The position numbers and the translations under genes are program-made. 64,000 nt of DNA. It comes from Pezicula radicicola (lineage: Eukaryota; Ascomycota; Leotiomycetes; Helotiales; Dermateaceae). Positions within the stretch are counted from its first letter, which is position 1, and each line of letters begins with the position of its first letter. The notes below the pieces were generated by a model. The model was not told the DNA's origin and did no database searches. It worked only from the letters and a program-made list of their open reading frames with translations. Location: positions 3,200-67,199 of the forward strand of contig PDUO01000060.1 of the NCBI GenBank assembly GCA_003008705.1. The letters are read 5' to 3'. This document shows, piece after piece, positions 11,112 to 29,880 of this stretch.

Positions 11112-12989
11112 ATGGTTCAGCCTCCTCTCAGGCGGCTTCTTGCGCTTGCCAGAACCTCAGTTCTCGGAGCTGCAGCCGGTACCTCAACCTCAATCCAGGA
11201 ACTCCTCGAACAATCTACACCTGGCTTTGGATTTCTGCAAGCCTTCTTTAACACTTGGCTCAAGCTCGATCTCACGACTCTCGCCGCTGCTTTGACCATC
11301 TTTGGCACGGTGTCAAGCGCCCTGCGAGACCTTCACGGACTGGGCCTCAAATTCTATTGGTGGATCATAAAATTTTGCACTGCGTCCATCTCTATAGCTT
11401 GCAGTGACAAGCTTAATAGAGAGGTTCTCAACTGGCTTGGAGCTCAAGTTTTGACGCGGCAGGGTACTCGAGTCTTGACTGCGCGATCTGAGAATATCGA
11501 AAATGATTCCTGGCGCTATCAACGAGTGGCAGTAAAAAGAAACGACTATTATCATGGGAAGAGAATTCCTATTGAGTATCTTCCAACCTTTGGCGCGACA
11601 TGGTTCATCCACGAGAGGAGAGTATTCTTAGTCCGACGGATACCCATTTCCAGCCACATAGGGCCTAATAATGAGCCCGATGAATACGCTGCTGCTCCTG
11701 AAGGCGACGAGCCGCTTGTGGTTATGTGCCTTGGTCGCTCAGTAGCACCCATCAAAAGATTCCTCGAGATGTGTCGCGAGTTTGCAGACAAACAGAGGGA
11801 GTCTTTCATCACCATCCGCGCTTCCAAGAACCAGTACAACCGCGAATCGTGGGATACGACGATCCTCAGACCTATCCGGCCTCTGGAAACAGTTCACTTT
11901 GATGAGGCTACAAAAGAACAGCTTGTATTTGATATCAGGAATTATTTAGATCCTGCTACGAGGCAGTTCTATACCTCACGTGGCATTCCTTACCGACGGG
12001 GCTATCTCCTACATGGTCCTCCAGGAACGGGCAAGACATCACTCACTCTCGCTCTTGCAGGATATTTTGGTCTTGAACTCTATTTACTGCACATCCCAAG
12101 CGTCAAAGAGGACAGCCATCTGGAAACATTATTCAATGCACTGCCACCCAGATGCATCGTACTCCTCGAAGACATTGACGCAGTCGGAATAAAACGCCAG
12201 ACATCGATGGATGACGAAGATGACGACGACGACGATGATGATGAAAGCAGTTACGGCCGTTCTCACTGCACTTTGTCCGGCCTTCTCAATGTGCTAGACG
12301 GTGTAGCATCTCAAGAAGGTCGTATCGTACTAATGACCTCCAATATAGCTGATAAACTGGACAGAGCCCTGGTCAGACCCGGCCGTATTGATAAGATGAT
12401 TTATCTCGGTAACATCTCTCCAAGAAGTGCTGAACTAATGTTTCACCGCATGTATACCCCCGATCGTACTCCCACAAACACCAACCTCGTCGAACTAGGA
12501 GTCGGAGATGAAGAGCTCCAAAAACTCGCTTTGCAGTTTAGTAGCCAGATCCCTGATAATACTTTTACGCCGGCTCAGCTTCAGGGATATCTACTTCATC
12601 ATAGCAGTTCTCCTATTGTTGCTGCTAAGGAGACTGAGAGGTGGGTAAAGGAGGAGAAGGTTAGAATAGAGGAATTGAATGCGAAGAAAAAGAAGATTGC
12701 GCAACGGAAGGCTAATAGGAGGAGGGAGAAGGGGTTGAGACTTTTAGAGAAGTTGGGAGGCAGTGATGGTGGGGATGATGAGAAGGATAGTAAAAATGAG
12801 AAAGAGAAGGGGGATGGTGTAGGGGGAAAGGATAATGGAGAGAAGGATGGAAAGGGAACAGGTATAGAGGTAAAGGATGGTATTGAAGGACAGGCGCAGA
12901 AAGATGGAGCGGCTACAGATGGAGAGGCAAAAGAGGGAGAGGCCAAAGAGAAAGATTTTCCCAAAGGGGAAGAGAAGGTTGAGAGTTAA
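11112..12989 (+). CDS. BCS1-like AAA ATPase, 625 aa
   Basis: Single exon. The N terminus has a hydrophobic stretch and a BCS1-type N-terminal domain, with the family linker ILRPIRPLETVHFDEATK ahead of the ATPase. Walker A is GPPGTGKT at residues 302-309; Walker B is VLLEDIDAVG around residues 349-358. These are followed by a sensor region (LMTSNIADKL) and the arginine-finger segment ALVRPGRIDKMI. A run of acidic residues (about ten Asp/Glu) is inserted just after Walker B. The last 100 residues are almost pure Lys/Glu/Gly, with no counterpart in yeast Bcs1, which is about 450 aa. Yeast Bcs1 translocates the folded Rieske protein across the inner mitochondrial membrane. Filamentous fungi carry many BCS1-like paralogues of unknown role, and this is more likely one of those than the true orthologue. 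Confidence 0.88.
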   Translation: MVQPPLRRLLALARTSVLGAAAGTSTSIQELLEQSTPGFGFLQAFFNTWLKLDLTTLAAALTIFGTVSSALRDLHGLGLKFYWWIIKFCTASISIACSDKLNREVLNWLGAQVLTRQGTRVLTARSENIENDSWRYQRVAVKRNDYYHGKRIPIEYLPTFGATWFIHERRVFLVRRIPISSHIGPNNEPDEYAAAPEGDEPLVVMCLGRSVAPIKRFLEMCREFADKQRESFITIRASKNQYNRESWDTTILRPIRPLETVHFDEATKEQLVFDIRNYLDPATRQFYTSRGIPYRRGYLLHGPPGTGKTSLTLALAGYFGLELYLLHIPSVKEDSHLETLFNALPPRCIVLLEDIDAVGIKRQTSMDDEDDDDDDDDESSYGRSHCTLSGLLNVLDGVASQEGRIVLMTSNIADKLDRALVRPGRIDKMIYLGNISPRSAELMFHRMYTPDRTPTNTNLVELGVGDEELQKLALQFSSQIPDNTFTPAQLQGYLLHHSSSPIVAAKETERWVKEEKVRIEELNAKKKKIAQRKANRRREKGLRLLEKLGGSDGGDDEKDSKNEKEKGDGVGGKDNGEKDGKGTGIEVKDGIEGQAQKDGAATDGEAKEGEAKEKDFPKGEEKVES

Positions 12990-15013: not shown

Positions 15014-15310
15014 CTAACTCGTTGAATGTATCGTCCTGCTGTTACCATGTACGAGCTCAGGTAAACAAGCAGCGGTTCCTCCTTGATACATTTGAGATGG
15101 ATGGCGAATTGGATGTGCTTTGTGGGGTTTAAAGAGAGGAAAACTGCAATGGATTGACTTCCTGTCCTTTTTCTTCATCTGCCTGATTCGTTCATCATGT
15201 TGAAAATCCTCCGGTTTGTGGTTGGTTCCTCTGTCGGACAGTGCTAAGAACTTGGGAGAAGATTCGGTTGGAGGGGATATTGGGACTGTGGATTTGTTAG
15301 TTATTGTCAT
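15014..15310 (-). CDS. Possible small unknown protein, 98 aa
   Basis: An intact ORF from an ATG preceded by CTACCT, rich in Lys, His, Pro and Ser, with no recognisable domain. Upstream on the same strand (15311-15668) is a pyrimidine-rich stretch that could be its leader. Weakly supported: it could equally be chance or part of the 3' region of the repeat-peptide gene upstream on the same strand. Confidence 0.25.
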   Translation of the reverse strand: MTITNKSTVPISPPTESSPKFLALSDRGTNHKPEDFQHDERIRQMKKKDRKSIHCSFPLFKPHKAHPIRHPSQMYQGGTAACLPELVHGNSRTIHSTS

Positions 15311-15715
15311 AGGTAGGCGGAGTAGGGGGGGAAGGTGAAAGCTTACTGATGAATCAAGTAGGGAGATGAGGAAACAGAACTGGGGTTGTATGTTGCTTTG
15401 TATAGATAATTTGGACTGGAGAATTGAAGTTGTTGAGAAGTGAATGTCGAAAGTTCGTGGTCGAAATAAGAAAGAAAAGAAATGGTGATGTTGAAGTTGC
15501 CCTCATGTTGCTATGCTGAGATGCCAATGCTAATGCCGTGTTGTCGTTGGAGTATGTACGTGCTGTGTAATGTATAAGCTGAGGTGAAGTGAATCCGAGG
15601 TCTCGAAGTCGTCCACTGCTAACCATCCAAGCCCCATAGCCTGTCAGACACGCTAGGGATCCAAACAATTAACAGTGAGCTTCCTACTCATCAGTACAAA
15701 TAAAGAGGAAACCAT

Positions 15716-15871
15716 CTACTGCACAGTGCAGCCATAGTTTCCCCCACGAGCAGCCTTCTGAACAACACATCCATAGTTTCCACCACCAGCTGCAGCTTTC
15801 TGGACAACGCAACCGTAGTTACCACCTCTTGCTGAGCGCATGACTGTGCAACCGTAATTTCCTTTTCCCAT
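15716..15871 (-). CDS. Tandem-repeat CaaX lipopeptide pheromone precursor (putative), 51 aa
   Basis: A 51-codon intact ORF with four units. Each is a small linker, then [G/K]GNYGC, then three residues of CaaX type (TVM, VVQ, VVQ, TVQ). Each triplet is followed at once by a basic residue (R, K, K) or, for the last, by the stop codon. Cysteines are at 8, 21, 35 and 48. The protein therefore ends in a CaaX box, CTVQ, and carries three internal copies. Known parallels: ascomycete a-factor-type pheromones end in a Cys-Val-Val-Met-like box. Rhodotorucin A precursors of Rhodosporidium repeat the peptide with CaaX-plus-Lys spacers. The Trichoderma hybrid precursor repeats a GC[T/S]VM motif. There is no signal peptide, as expected for peptides exported by an ABC transporter after farnesylation. 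Upstream lies a TATA box and an A/C-rich leader of about 100 nt typical of strongly expressed fungal genes. Homology is inferred from motif only. An unrelated repeat protein is the main alternative. Confidence 0.65.
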   Translation of the reverse strand: MGKGNYGCTVMRSARGGNYGCVVQKAAAGGGNYGCVVQKAARGGNYGCTVQ

Positions 15872-16020
15872 TTTGACGATTTGTGTGCTTTTTTTGTGTT
15901 TTTGGTTTTGTGTGTGTGTGTGTGAAGGATCGATTGATCAGCAGTTTGTGTGAGCGAGTGTTTTTGAATGAAATTTGTGCGGGTGGAGAGAGAAGTTTTG
16001 TGGTAGGGAGATGGGGTGGT

Positions 16021-16027
16021 TTTTATA
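16021..16027 (-). promoter_or_regulatory. TATA box of the repeat-peptide gene
   Basis: TATAAAA on the minus strand, about 150 nt upstream of the ATG at 15871. The interval between is a long leader with CA-rich and A-rich segments running to the start codon (context GTCAAAATG), as in highly expressed fungal genes. Confidence 0.55.
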
Positions 16028-16029
16028 GG

Positions 16030-17789
16030 TGTTTTGGGTGGGTCGTTTTTGTTTCGTTTGTTTGGTTGTGGGATTGGTGGGATGGTGGTTGTAGGAGGGA
16101 GGAGGGGGAGAGGGTAAAGAGTTTTTGATAAAGCAGGTCTGGATTTGCCGCTAGTATTGTTGTTTGGGGTCTATTATGTGCCGTCAACGTCAGTTGACGA
16201 ATATCAAGGATAAGGAAGATTAAAGAATAGGAAGTGCCTTTCGAGCCTGCTCGGCTCTTCACATCCGGGAGATTTCTGGAAGGTTAGAAGCTGAAAGATC
16301 TTTGGGATTCAAAGATGGAGGAAGAGAAGATGCTCTAGAAGATGATAGTCTAGACAGTCTAAGAGAGATTACTGACTGATCGTGCAAGGCTAGCTATTGG
16401 ACGTGAAGATCTACAATCTGTCCTAGCACAAACTATTTAGCTCCTAATTAATTATACAAAACTATCTTCATGTTATGACAATGATATCCATCAAGTTGTC
16501 GAACTGATGGCGGCGCGTCGCTGGATCTTGGTTGCTGCGTCTAGCGAGCTCGCTTAGCCTCTTAATATTGTTGTCAACAACAATACTAAACTCTATCAAA
16601 GAATACTCCACCCCGATAGTTGGAGCACGTCCCCGAATGGCTTTGGAAGAGAATCTAGATTTCAATGATGGAATTGAGGGCCATAAGAAAGACGGACTTT
16701 TTGATTGTGATGGTGGCTTGGCTTCGAATTTGGACTATACGTCAAGTTAGTCGTCAAGTTAGTCGTCATGGAAGATGGAAAGACTTTTTTCTTAATGCTA
16801 CCAGCGAATAAACCTTCCACAGAGGCCAAAGTACTGCTATGGATGGTCTTGAATTATGTACTAAATGCTGTATTGAATTTTTTCCTGAGTGTGGAAGCTA
16901 TGCTTGGAAAAGCTGCGAGCACATCTTCAGGACATGTGAGGACTCAGTTCCGGTAACATTGTCGTAATATCTCACTTCTTATCCTTACAACCTTGGAAAT
17001 GCTCTGCTAATTATTACACTGATTTACGGATAAAACCAGTCGGTCTGGCAAGTTCGATGCTCGAGAATATTGTTGCAACTGCCAAGGGTGAGTCGGTAAA
17101 TCCCATATAGTGATATTGATACAGCGGCGTTTTCGCAATAACTACCATATTTCAACAAACTTCGTAGCTCATATATACACCCACTCCATAGAATATATCA
17201 ACAAATGGGCAGAATGAAATAAGAAGATCAAAATCTTATTGTAATGATAGAACGACAAGGTTCCGCTCGCTTCGAGACGAAGTTGACTTTTCTCTTCCTT
17301 TGTCAGCCAGTGATACCGGTATTCAATTGTCAGTTAGGACTCAGAACACTGTATTCAAGGGCTAGCTCTTGAACAGAAGTCATTGTCTGCCTAGGTCAAA
17401 GTAGCCATGGCTGATGGTTCGTGGTTAATAGGAAAGACTGTTAAGCTCTTCGACAACCTACGTCATTGCGGGTCTAGCAGCCCACCATTTCTCGTGCTCC
17501 AAAAATTCTTCAAACACATTAACTATGGGATTCTCGAAGAAAAGAAGGCGTGACGATCTATTCCAGAAGTTTCTGTGTATGACAAGTGCAATACAGTGAG
17601 GAGAACATGACATGAAAAAAGATTGTAATGAAACGAGGCAGACTCAGAGTACTCAACACGTGATAGTCAGCCTTGCGCTAAAAAGCAGGCTACGCAGTTT
17701 AGCTACCCCTCCACGTTCCAACAACAACTCTCAACACCATCCCTCCTCACCCTTCGCCCCTCCTGGTTCCTCCTCTCCTCTACATCAAC
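16030..17789. other. Mostly non-coding, with two weak coding-like pieces
   Basis: About 1.75 kb between the repeat-peptide gene and the Ybp-family gene. Minus strand 16468-16733 is open for 88 codons and reads like the C-terminal exon of a protein (RGRAPTIGVEYSLIEF). It starts right after a TATAG that could be a 3' splice site; I could not find the upstream exons. Plus strand 16839-16967 is a 42-aa cysteine-rich ORF (six Cys). The rest shows nothing. Confidence 0.3.
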
Positions 17790-27813: not shown

Positions 27814-29880
27814 CTAGGCAAGCATCAATTCAGTCAGTTGAATACCGGCAAAGAAATCCCTTCGATACCCATAAGACACCCCAATACGCAGATACTTGTT
27901 ATTATTGTCCTCGCACTGCTCAAGAAGTAGCATAACTGACTCGCCTATCTCGAGACAATGAATCTGAAGGAGCTCCTTCTCTGCACGGTCTGCATCTTCA
28001 TGATAGTCCAGCTGGCCTAACACTTCTTCCTTCCGAGCCTCGTATGAAAGGACACGACCAGATGTCAAGTCGGTGGAATGCGCGGGCTCTTCAGGGTAAC
28101 TTCCAAATGAGAACTTTTGTTCATTTCCAATCATCTTACTGATTTCCATCCATGGCCGCTTCATTGACCTTGGGCTTAAAAAGGGTCGCAGTCTTCCGCG
28201 GACTTTGATGCATCTTACAGCCGCTCCTTGTTTGATAGCGGCGGTAGGGTTTTCATCTTGTCTCGGTGCATTTTCTTCCAGCAGTTCAAAACTAGACAGC
28301 TTTGAGAAGTTATGCTTGAGTCTCGTCGAGGTGCGGAAGGGAAGCGATGCCCACGACCATGACGGTGCGAACTCTCGAAGGTTTTCGCATTTCACCAAAC
28401 CTCTTGGCTCGGTGACACACCAGGCAAGATCTTCTTCGAAGGTCTTTCGCCATAATCCTGCTAAGTACTCGTCGCCATTTTGTGCTACGTAATATCTTGA
28501 GGCAAGGCCAGAAAGTGCTGGAAATCTATCCTCTTTGTGACTCAGTTCTCGCCGAATATAAGAGTCCACGACATCGAGCCACTCATCGTGCAGAAGCGTA
28601 TCTTGCCCTCTTCGGCAAGACATCAAGAAGCTTTGTGAAGAATTCTGCACTTCATCGAGCGTAGATTTATCTTCCAATGGCCGGTGAGACGAGTGGGGAA
28701 CTGGTATTTGCAGTCGTCCCAGCTCAGTGTGTTGGCTTATTGAGCATGACCAGTACATCCTCTGAGCAGACCAATATAATATTCTTGGAGAGAGGCGCTC
28801 TTCTTGCAACGTCCAGGCTCGACTTGCCAGGGGCGATTGTGCACGTATCTCTTTCAACGACACATCAAAATTTGTTATCCACTGGTCTCTCAGTCTGCAA
28901 GGCTTGGTGGCAGGTGACCATGCTTCTCGCTGTCGGAACAAACTTTCTGTCGCCTTCTCGCTCGAACAGGCGCATAAGGTAAAGCACGCATTGCCATATA
29001 CTTCATGCATCATTGCTGCCTCGTGCTGCCAATCCTCCTGGTCGTCCTGGACAATGCAAACTGTATCGATCCATATGTACTCAATACCAAGATGATTCAT
29101 GAGGGCGATGGAATCTTGAATTATCACTGGCAGTTCTGAACAATCGAATGGCTGGGTTCGTCTCTGGATATTATCTTTTTTGGTTTTGCCATCGTCAATT
29201 TTCTTATTCTCGCACTTAGTTAACCGGTCCCAGCTGCCCCAGCAGTAACTCAGTGCAGCGTATTCAATATCTGTCTCTAATCTTTGTGGGTAGTGTATCA
29301 ACTCGACTTTTGACTCTGATAGTATATGAACCAGTCTGGTAGGACAGCTAGAAGACCAGCGAAGATTTCCGCATTCTGGATGGTTCTTCATGCAGTCCTC
29401 CAACCATCTCTTCGCCTGCTCGTAGACACTAGGACTGTCAGGATTCTCGGGAAGATCCAAGCACTCTACCGTGTTTAAGTCCGTACAGGAGACTCTTGCT
29501 GAGTTGGAATGACCGGCAGCTTTGCCGATGCTGATCTTGAGAACTGTCTCCGCCGAGGGCATTGCCTCTCTGCGGACTAGTTGGGCATAAATCGGTTCTG
29601 AGAATGCCTCTTTCTTGAGTCTTGCTATATCCTCCGCTGTACGTTGCTTCAAGAGAAGCGCCTGCCGAAAGACTCTACACGTGACACACTTCCGAGCACA
29701 TGAATCAAGCTCTTGGTAGCTCAAGTGAAAGCACTCTCTCTTGGAGAATAGTCGAAAAGTTTGCCGATACTCTTGTCTCCTCTGAACTTCAAGCAACATC
29801 TCTATCTCCCGACAGCCCTTGCAAATATATTGATGGTCACGAGATGTTTCCAACTTGGAGAAACTGACTTCTTGTCCCAT
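27814..29880 (-). CDS. HET-domain (heterokaryon incompatibility) protein, 688 aa
   Basis: Single exon, ATG at 29880. The HET domain lies at about residues 205-370 with its three signature blocks: ALSYCWGSW (209-217), YIWIDTVCIVQDD (268-280) and SRAWTLQEERLSPR (353-366). Ahead of it is a cysteine-containing region (C20, C23, C50, C61, C65, C68) that may bind zinc. The C-terminal 250 residues are typical, variable HET-protein sequence. Family role: HET domains trigger programmed cell death when genetically different hyphae fuse, usually together with a partner. The gene is divergent from a small four-helix membrane protein, with 493 bp between the starts. Whether it acts in allorecognition in this species is unknown. 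Confidence 0.92.
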   Translation of the reverse strand: MGQEVSFSKLETSRDHQYICKGCREIEMLLEVQRRQEYRQTFRLFSKRECFHLSYQELDSCARKCVTCRVFRQALLLKQRTAEDIARLKKEAFSEPIYAQLVRREAMPSAETVLKISIGKAAGHSNSARVSCTDLNTVECLDLPENPDSPSVYEQAKRWLEDCMKNHPECGNLRWSSSCPTRLVHILSESKVELIHYPQRLETDIEYAALSYCWGSWDRLTKCENKKIDDGKTKKDNIQRRTQPFDCSELPVIIQDSIALMNHLGIEYIWIDTVCIVQDDQEDWQHEAAMMHEVYGNACFTLCACSSEKATESLFRQREAWSPATKPCRLRDQWITNFDVSLKEIRAQSPLASRAWTLQEERLSPRILYWSAQRMYWSCSISQHTELGRLQIPVPHSSHRPLEDKSTLDEVQNSSQSFLMSCRRGQDTLLHDEWLDVVDSYIRRELSHKEDRFPALSGLASRYYVAQNGDEYLAGLWRKTFEEDLAWCVTEPRGLVKCENLREFAPSWSWASLPFRTSTRLKHNFSKLSSFELLEENAPRQDENPTAAIKQGAAVRCIKVRGRLRPFLSPRSMKRPWMEISKMIGNEQKFSFGSYPEEPAHSTDLTSGRVLSYEARKEEVLGQLDYHEDADRAEKELLQIHCLEIGESVMLLLEQCEDNNNKYLRIGVSYGYRRDFFAGIQLTELMLA

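Follow-up and report, generated by a model that had tools for sequence, protein, structure and literature searches.

Precursors of a-type mating pheromones that carry several CaaX boxes have been established in the Hypocreales, in Verticillium and in the Ceratocystidaceae (PMC3068285, PMC10182648, PMC13037118, PMC11077750), and several of the published forms (PMC13037118, PMC10182648; VdPpg2, PMC11077750) place a separate CaaX box after every mature peptide. The Trichoderma protein HPP1, which has 48 residues and no signal sequence, repeats the motif (L/I)GC(S/T)VM three times, with the last unit forming the C-terminal CaaX box; KR and KK sites were described in the H. jecorina protein, a TATA box was placed at -133, and the orthologues that were reported all came from the Hypocreales (PMC3068285). 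Mutants of the HPP1 Kex2 sites stayed fertile, and its authors considered rhodotorucine-like processing to be possible (PMC3068285); the site mutants left open whether such precursors are cut into several lipopeptides. VdPpg2 of Verticillium dahliae, a 66-residue protein described as lacking a signal peptide, contains five repeats of 11 residues with internal CaaX-like motifs and a terminal CaaX box, and lysine was named as its putative processing site (PMC11077750). Species of Huntiella encode peptides of the RSINQSSP type in up to seven genes per genome (PMC10182648, PMC13037118), and one published definition of the a-pheromones includes a hydrophobic N terminus (PMC13037118).

According to Wilson et al., the Sordariomycetes were the only filamentous ascomycetes in which an a-factor gene had been found, until those authors proposed in 2023 that a family represented by BCIN_13g03330 fills this role in the Leotiomycetes (PMC10569646). 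The members of that family are 45-64 residues long, begin with a stretch rich in serine and threonine, have a GY motif in 87 cases, end mostly in CTVM and sometimes in CVVM or CTIL, and have been described from no fewer than 111 Leotiomycetes out of 124; their expression was found to be independent of mating type, and several lines of evidence against a role in mating were listed by the same authors (PMC10569646). The multi-CaaX kind of precursor is already known in the neighbouring class, the Sordariomycetes, and the a-type pheromone of the Leotiomycetes is still disputed. Among the matches listed in a search of open-licence papers, none reported a multi-CaaX a-pheromone for the Leotiomycetes, and no mention of the tandem peptide strings described below was found there.

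A tandem CaaX reading frame in Pezicula radicicola

In a stretch of 64,000 nucleotides (the window), an open reading frame of 51 codons extends across 15716..15871 on the minus strand, with its ATG at 15871 and its stop codon at 15718-15716. A first-pass annotation had given this interval exactly, and it is the strand that has to be read as minus, the frame on the plus strand over the same nucleotides being interrupted by a stop. The product, MGKGNYGCTVMRSARGGNYGCVVQKAAAGGGNYGCVVQKAARGGNYGCTVQ-stop, has cysteines at residues 8, 21, 35 and 48, which are followed by TVM-R, VVQ-K, VVQ-K and TVQ-stop, so that its CaaX boxes read CTVM, CVVQ, CVVQ and CTVQ, with Met or Gln at the X position of all four. 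The translation thus agrees with the earlier description of exactly three residues between each cysteine and an Arg, Lys, Lys or stop, and of a protein that ends in a CaaX box. The four units, which had been described as centred on GGNYGC, fit that description in the second (GGNYGC-VVQ then K, 15800..15826), the third (GGNYGC-VVQ then K, 15758..15784) and the C-terminal fourth (GGNYGC-TVQ, the true CaaX box, 15719..15745), but the first (GNYGC-TVM then R, 15839..15862) reads KGNYGC; all are on the minus strand. A basic residue immediately precedes (G)GNYGC in units 1 (Lys), 2 (Arg) and 4 (Arg), and none does so in unit 3.

The protein matches no Pfam family and contains single Lys and Arg residues only, without a dibasic Kex2 site, and when judged by eye it has neither a signal peptide nor a hydrophobic leader, its N terminus (MGKGNYGCTVMR) having no hydrophobic look. 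It has two features expected of an h-type or multi-CaaX precursor, namely a short reading frame (51 residues, where fewer than 100 are expected) whose leader, as assessed by eye, is not a signal peptide, and at least three copies of a cysteine motif (here four), the last of which stands at the extreme C terminus as CTVQ-stop. A repeat protein of the alpha type, processed by Kex2, was considered and rejected, given the absence of a dibasic site, the absence of a leader by eye, and the presence of an alpha-factor gene elsewhere in the genome.

An in-frame stop lies 69 nucleotides upstream of the ATG (15938..15940, minus strand), and within 15300-16500 the minus strand contains no splice donor of the form GT[A/G][A/C/T]G[T/A]. 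Taken together, these two observations make the terminal CTVQ look like a real C terminus, and splicing of the frame into a longer protein, which the first-pass annotation had named as the model that would displace it, was rejected for want of a consensus donor. Further upstream on the same strand are a putative TATA box (TATAAA, 16022..16027), the first base of which is 156 nucleotides from the ATG, and a CCAAT at -206 (16073..16077), both of them consensus matches only, together with an AACAAT at -290 (16156..16161), a motif named for the promoters of VdPpg2 and VdPre1 in Verticillium (PMC11077750) that may well be a chance match here. The gene is flanked on one side by an AAA/BCS1-type gene (11112-12989), which is followed by a 138-codon frame without a Pfam match, and on the other by a gene of the YAP/Alf4/glomulin family (from 17790). 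Elsewhere in the window (27814-29880, minus strand), a frame of 688 codons encodes a HET (heterokaryon incompatibility) domain.

The arrangement of the tandem gene is that of the published a-pheromones in which each mature peptide is followed by a CaaX box, and by analogy of architecture the Sordariomycete multi-CaaX a-factors (VdPpg2, those of Huntiella and other Ceratocystidaceae, those of Fusarium, and Trichoderma HPP1) appear to be a better match to it than canonical single-copy a-factors. HPP1 shares with the tandem protein a length of about 50 residues, repeated xGC-aaX units, a last unit that is the C-terminal CaaX box, the lack of a signal sequence, and a TATA motif upstream of the gene (at -133 in HPP1, the putative one of the tandem gene at -156); the two differ in the number of units (four in the tandem protein), in the core, which is NYGC with Gln in most X positions (Tyr occupies the Leu/Ile position of the HPP1-group motif in all four units, and TVM follows the cysteine in one of four), in the basic sites, which are single rather than dibasic, dibasic sites having been reported only for the H. 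jecorina protein (PMC3068285), and in lineage, Hypocreales in the one case and probably Leotiomycetes in the other. The tandem gene is thus of the multi-CaaX kind by architecture, and is not an HPP1 orthologue. VdPpg2, likened to it by description, is similarly short with internal and terminal boxes, and differs in its repeat length (13-14 residues in the tandem protein). Unlike Huntiella, P. radicicola has a single such gene, and unlike the red yeasts that carry the rhodotorucine A precursors (the RHA genes), it is not a basidiomycete.

We consider it probable, at roughly three chances in four, that the frame is translated and that its product is the multi-copy precursor of a farnesylated a-type mating pheromone, with an architecture like that of the h-type.

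Constraint on the repeated units

The spacing of the units is difficult to obtain by chance. When residues 2-51 were shuffled 1,000,000 times, a Lys, Arg or stop was found at the fourth position after all four cysteines in 119 shuffles, and in none of the 1,000,000 when Val, Ile or Leu was additionally required at the second position and Met, Gln, Ser, Ala or Cys at the third. Short frames with a CaaX-like end are in themselves common (three in the 64-kb window, the tandem frame included, and two in 14 other loci), and it is the tandem arrangement that sets this gene apart.

One alternative is a non-coding tandem repeat that happens to be open, and Tandem Repeats Finder does report a 42-bp repeat here (2.4 copies, 80% matches). 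Codon statistics for the frame are mixed. Its whole-codon log-odds (-0.011) are not coding-like, being exceeded by two of the five other frames (0.156 and 0.269), reached by 41% of 305 random and partly overlapping open stretches of intergenic DNA, and surpassed by 99% of 111 blocks taken from the training genes themselves. Synonymous usage alone is coding-like (0.052), with values as high in 4.6% of the 305 stretches and in 40% of the 111 blocks. Against a non-coding origin stands the pattern of differences between the units: in the NYGC codons, minority bases number 0, 0 and 6 at codon positions 1, 2 and 3, and over the eight-codon block GNYGC-aaX, summed across the six pairs of units, pS is 0.825 and pN is 0.124 (pN/pS 0.15). 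The distances between unit starts (39, 42 and 39 nucleotides) are all divisible by three, such that the indel between units changes the spacing by exactly one codon and keeps the frame, and the CaaX box is retained in every unit together with its basic residue (in the last unit, the stop). We therefore regard an accidentally open repeat as very improbable. The four units are near synonymous saturation and yet the protein sequence has been kept, which points to an old repeat under selection at the protein level.

A second possibility is that the gene encodes a small membrane or cell-surface peptide, with Gly/Tyr/Cys repeats and a CaaX end, that has no role as a pheromone; only its terminal cysteine would be prenylated, and the internal cysteines would serve for acylation, disulfides or metal binding. 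Farnesyltransferase requires a free C-terminal CaaX box, and internal boxes become substrates only after prior cleavage, for which the protein offers no dibasic Kex2 site; both points favour such a peptide. It does not, however, account for the retention of Val at the a2 position, Met or Gln at the X position and a basic residue at +4 within the internal units in spite of their near-saturated synonymous divergence, and it is accordingly judged unlikely. The a2 position is Val in all four boxes while its third bases vary. The constraint seen at a2 and X of the terminal box extends to these positions in the internal boxes, which therefore appear to matter and look selected as well. The suggestion of a multi-copy lipopeptide pheromone precursor, as first put forward, is thus supported by the exact spacing and by a constraint that extends to all four units. 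This constraint also bears on the question that the HPP1 mutants raised, namely whether multi-CaaX precursors are cut into several lipopeptides.

Relatives and the published a-factor family

The assembly that was searched comprises 61.0 Mb in 152 contigs, and the tandem protein has one match in it, at its own locus. The pattern GNYGC-[TAIVM]-V has four matches in the genome, all of which are the tandem units, with one match in the control. Among 5.8 billion proteins, neither the 51-residue protein nor the 73-codon stop-to-stop frame recovered a homologue at E<=10, the word-sharing candidates numbering 7 and 2, respectively. That database includes related fungi, as the homologues of a second protein found there (see below) demonstrate; the small genes may be unannotated in it, or the tandem protein may be truly absent from those species, and the tandem gene is itself probably unannotated. 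Fourteen stretches in viral contigs that matched the search pattern are unrelated to the tandem protein.

A single-copy a-factor was sought among unspliced frames with ends of the CTVM, Y-C-x-x-M and YGC types. Only one of nine CTVM-stop matches is a plausible short frame; none of seven Y-C-x-x-M-stop matches has a usable start, and one of them (L065) does not end in a stop; four of five YGC-type matches are not the tandem gene, and only one of those has a start, in a 22-codon frame that ends in CAMK (L006). No unspliced small CaaX frames were found in the 9 kb around each of the genes for cyanate lyase and EBP2, which mark a-factor loci in Sordariomycetes. The plausible CTVM frame (C95:197266-197439, or L057:7267-7440, plus strand) encodes in an uninterrupted frame a protein of 57 residues that ends in CDGYECCCIPIPCTVM and has the features of the BCIN_13g03330 family. 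All 54 candidates recovered with it were homologues, the nearest being from Mollisia scopiformis (93%), followed by those of Acephala macrosclerotiorum (88%) and of Hyaloscypha bicolor (86%); these relationships make a position among the Leotiomycetes close to the Mollisiaceae likely for the fungus. The alignment of 28 of these 54 includes a member from Botrytis sinoallii, a CTIL end in Hyaloscypha bicolor and CVVM ends in two Diplocarpon proteins, and on these grounds the C95 protein is taken to belong to the BCIN_13g03330 family. The family resembles the tandem protein in being short, in ending with a CaaX box and, as far as this genome is concerned, in having an uninterrupted frame; it differs in having a single unit, a Ser/Thr-rich N terminus, a Cys-rich C terminus and members in Sordariomycete genera. 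A member of the family (P0002, assigned by features) gave no alignment with the tandem protein (E 3.6).

It could be argued that this single-copy family is the a-factor after all, and that the tandem gene specifies a CaaX peptide with a role outside mating. A member is present in this genome, and the breadth of the family among Leotiomycetes (at least the 111 of 124 species reported in PMC10569646) is in its favour; the doubts that its own authors raised about mating (PMC10569646) and its lack of similarity to the tandem protein count against it. The distribution of the family does so as well. Half of the aligned members (14 of 28, each 64-80% identical to the M. scopiformis protein) come from Colletotrichum, Apiospora, Fusarium, Gaeumannomyces, Nemania, Hypoxylon, Pseudomassariella and Diplogelasinospora, genera which we take to be Sordariomycetes; Fusarium solani is one of the species named, and five of these 14 models as deposited continue beyond the CaaX box. 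Other h- or a-type precursors have been described for F. solani and M. grisea, and the same paper notes an additional small CaaX protein in F. solani (PMC3068285). Since Sordariomycetes possess other described a-factors, the family is more likely to be a general CaaX protein, and the invariant CCC and PC ahead of its CaaX end, together with its Sordariomycete members, would likewise argue for a general cellular role. These members weaken the family as an a-factor, and so leave the tandem gene as a better candidate; we hold the single-copy alternative to be improbable, noting that it overlaps with the non-pheromone peptide considered above, and that the odds assigned to the several readings do not sum to one.

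A broader proposal, which we offer tentatively and at somewhat less than even odds, is that the tandem gene is the true a-factor of this lineage, and probably of a larger section of the Leotiomycetes, that annotation has missed it, and that the published a-factor is a different CaaX protein found across Leotiomycetes and Sordariomycetes. Now that there is a concrete tandem candidate with predicted peptide masses, in a genome that also encodes a receptor, the question of the Leotiomycete a-factor becomes testable.

Predicted maturation and the mating genes of the genome

In the maturation pathway that we propose, farnesyltransferase would modify the C-terminal cysteine of the last unit, while endoproteolysis beside the single Lys or Arg that follows each internal box, with trimming, would generate further CaaX termini. 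The aaX residues would then be removed and the cysteine methylated, and cutting on the N-terminal side would yield short lipopeptides, with farnesyl-(G)GNYGC-OMe as the likely mature form. The calculated [M+H]+ values are 788.4011 for farnesyl-GGNYGC-OMe and 731.3797 for farnesyl-GNYGC-OMe, and 1086.5765 for a longer form such as AARGGNYGC. Release at the basic residues, which had been suggested at first reading, is a prediction. Export of the lipopeptides would need no signal peptide, and STE3 would act as their receptor. Yeast farnesyltransferase was positive for patterns with Gln at the X position when using a Ydj1 reporter, and with Met at that position when using a Ras reporter (PMC10320760); the main text of that paper does not name CVVQ, CTVQ or CTVM as exact boxes.

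The genome appears to encode the cognate type of receptor: a STE3 match on contig C2 covers positions 1-292 of the 292 in PF02076 (E 1.2e-74), and is broken by one TGA and one TAG, both of them intron-like in look. A STE2 gene lies on C14, and the N-terminal domain of a STE24-type protein on C65, the latter family also matching one of 14 control genomes (B. subtilis). The alpha-factor precursor (C1:1881231-1881632, L025) has an open frame with three RCGRIGQPC-KR repeats, and KCGRIGQPC follows once in a later open stretch beyond a stop. The candidacy of the tandem gene is consistent with this setting, in which receptor and partner-pheromone genes are present, no consensus splice donor is found at the locus, and the genome holds a single match. 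The alpha-factor repeats have Ile where those reported for Mollisiaceae and allied families (RCGHPGQPCG, RCGYPGQPCG) have Pro.

At the MAT locus (C20:52032-64465; L053, L054), an APN2-like endonuclease gene and a SLA2-like gene enclose an HMG-box gene (MAT1-2-1-like) and an alpha-box gene (MAT1-1-1), and these last two are separated by a frame that matches no Pfam family. Its arrangement would be of the homothallic type, the gene names beyond their Pfam domains being assigned by inference. Away from this locus, at C68:264262-264363 (L009), lies a stray fragment, AYLTVLWQRDPFKA-WAIVAKAYSS, apparently a relic copy, whose sequence is almost the same as that of a segment of the MAT1-1-1 alpha domain.
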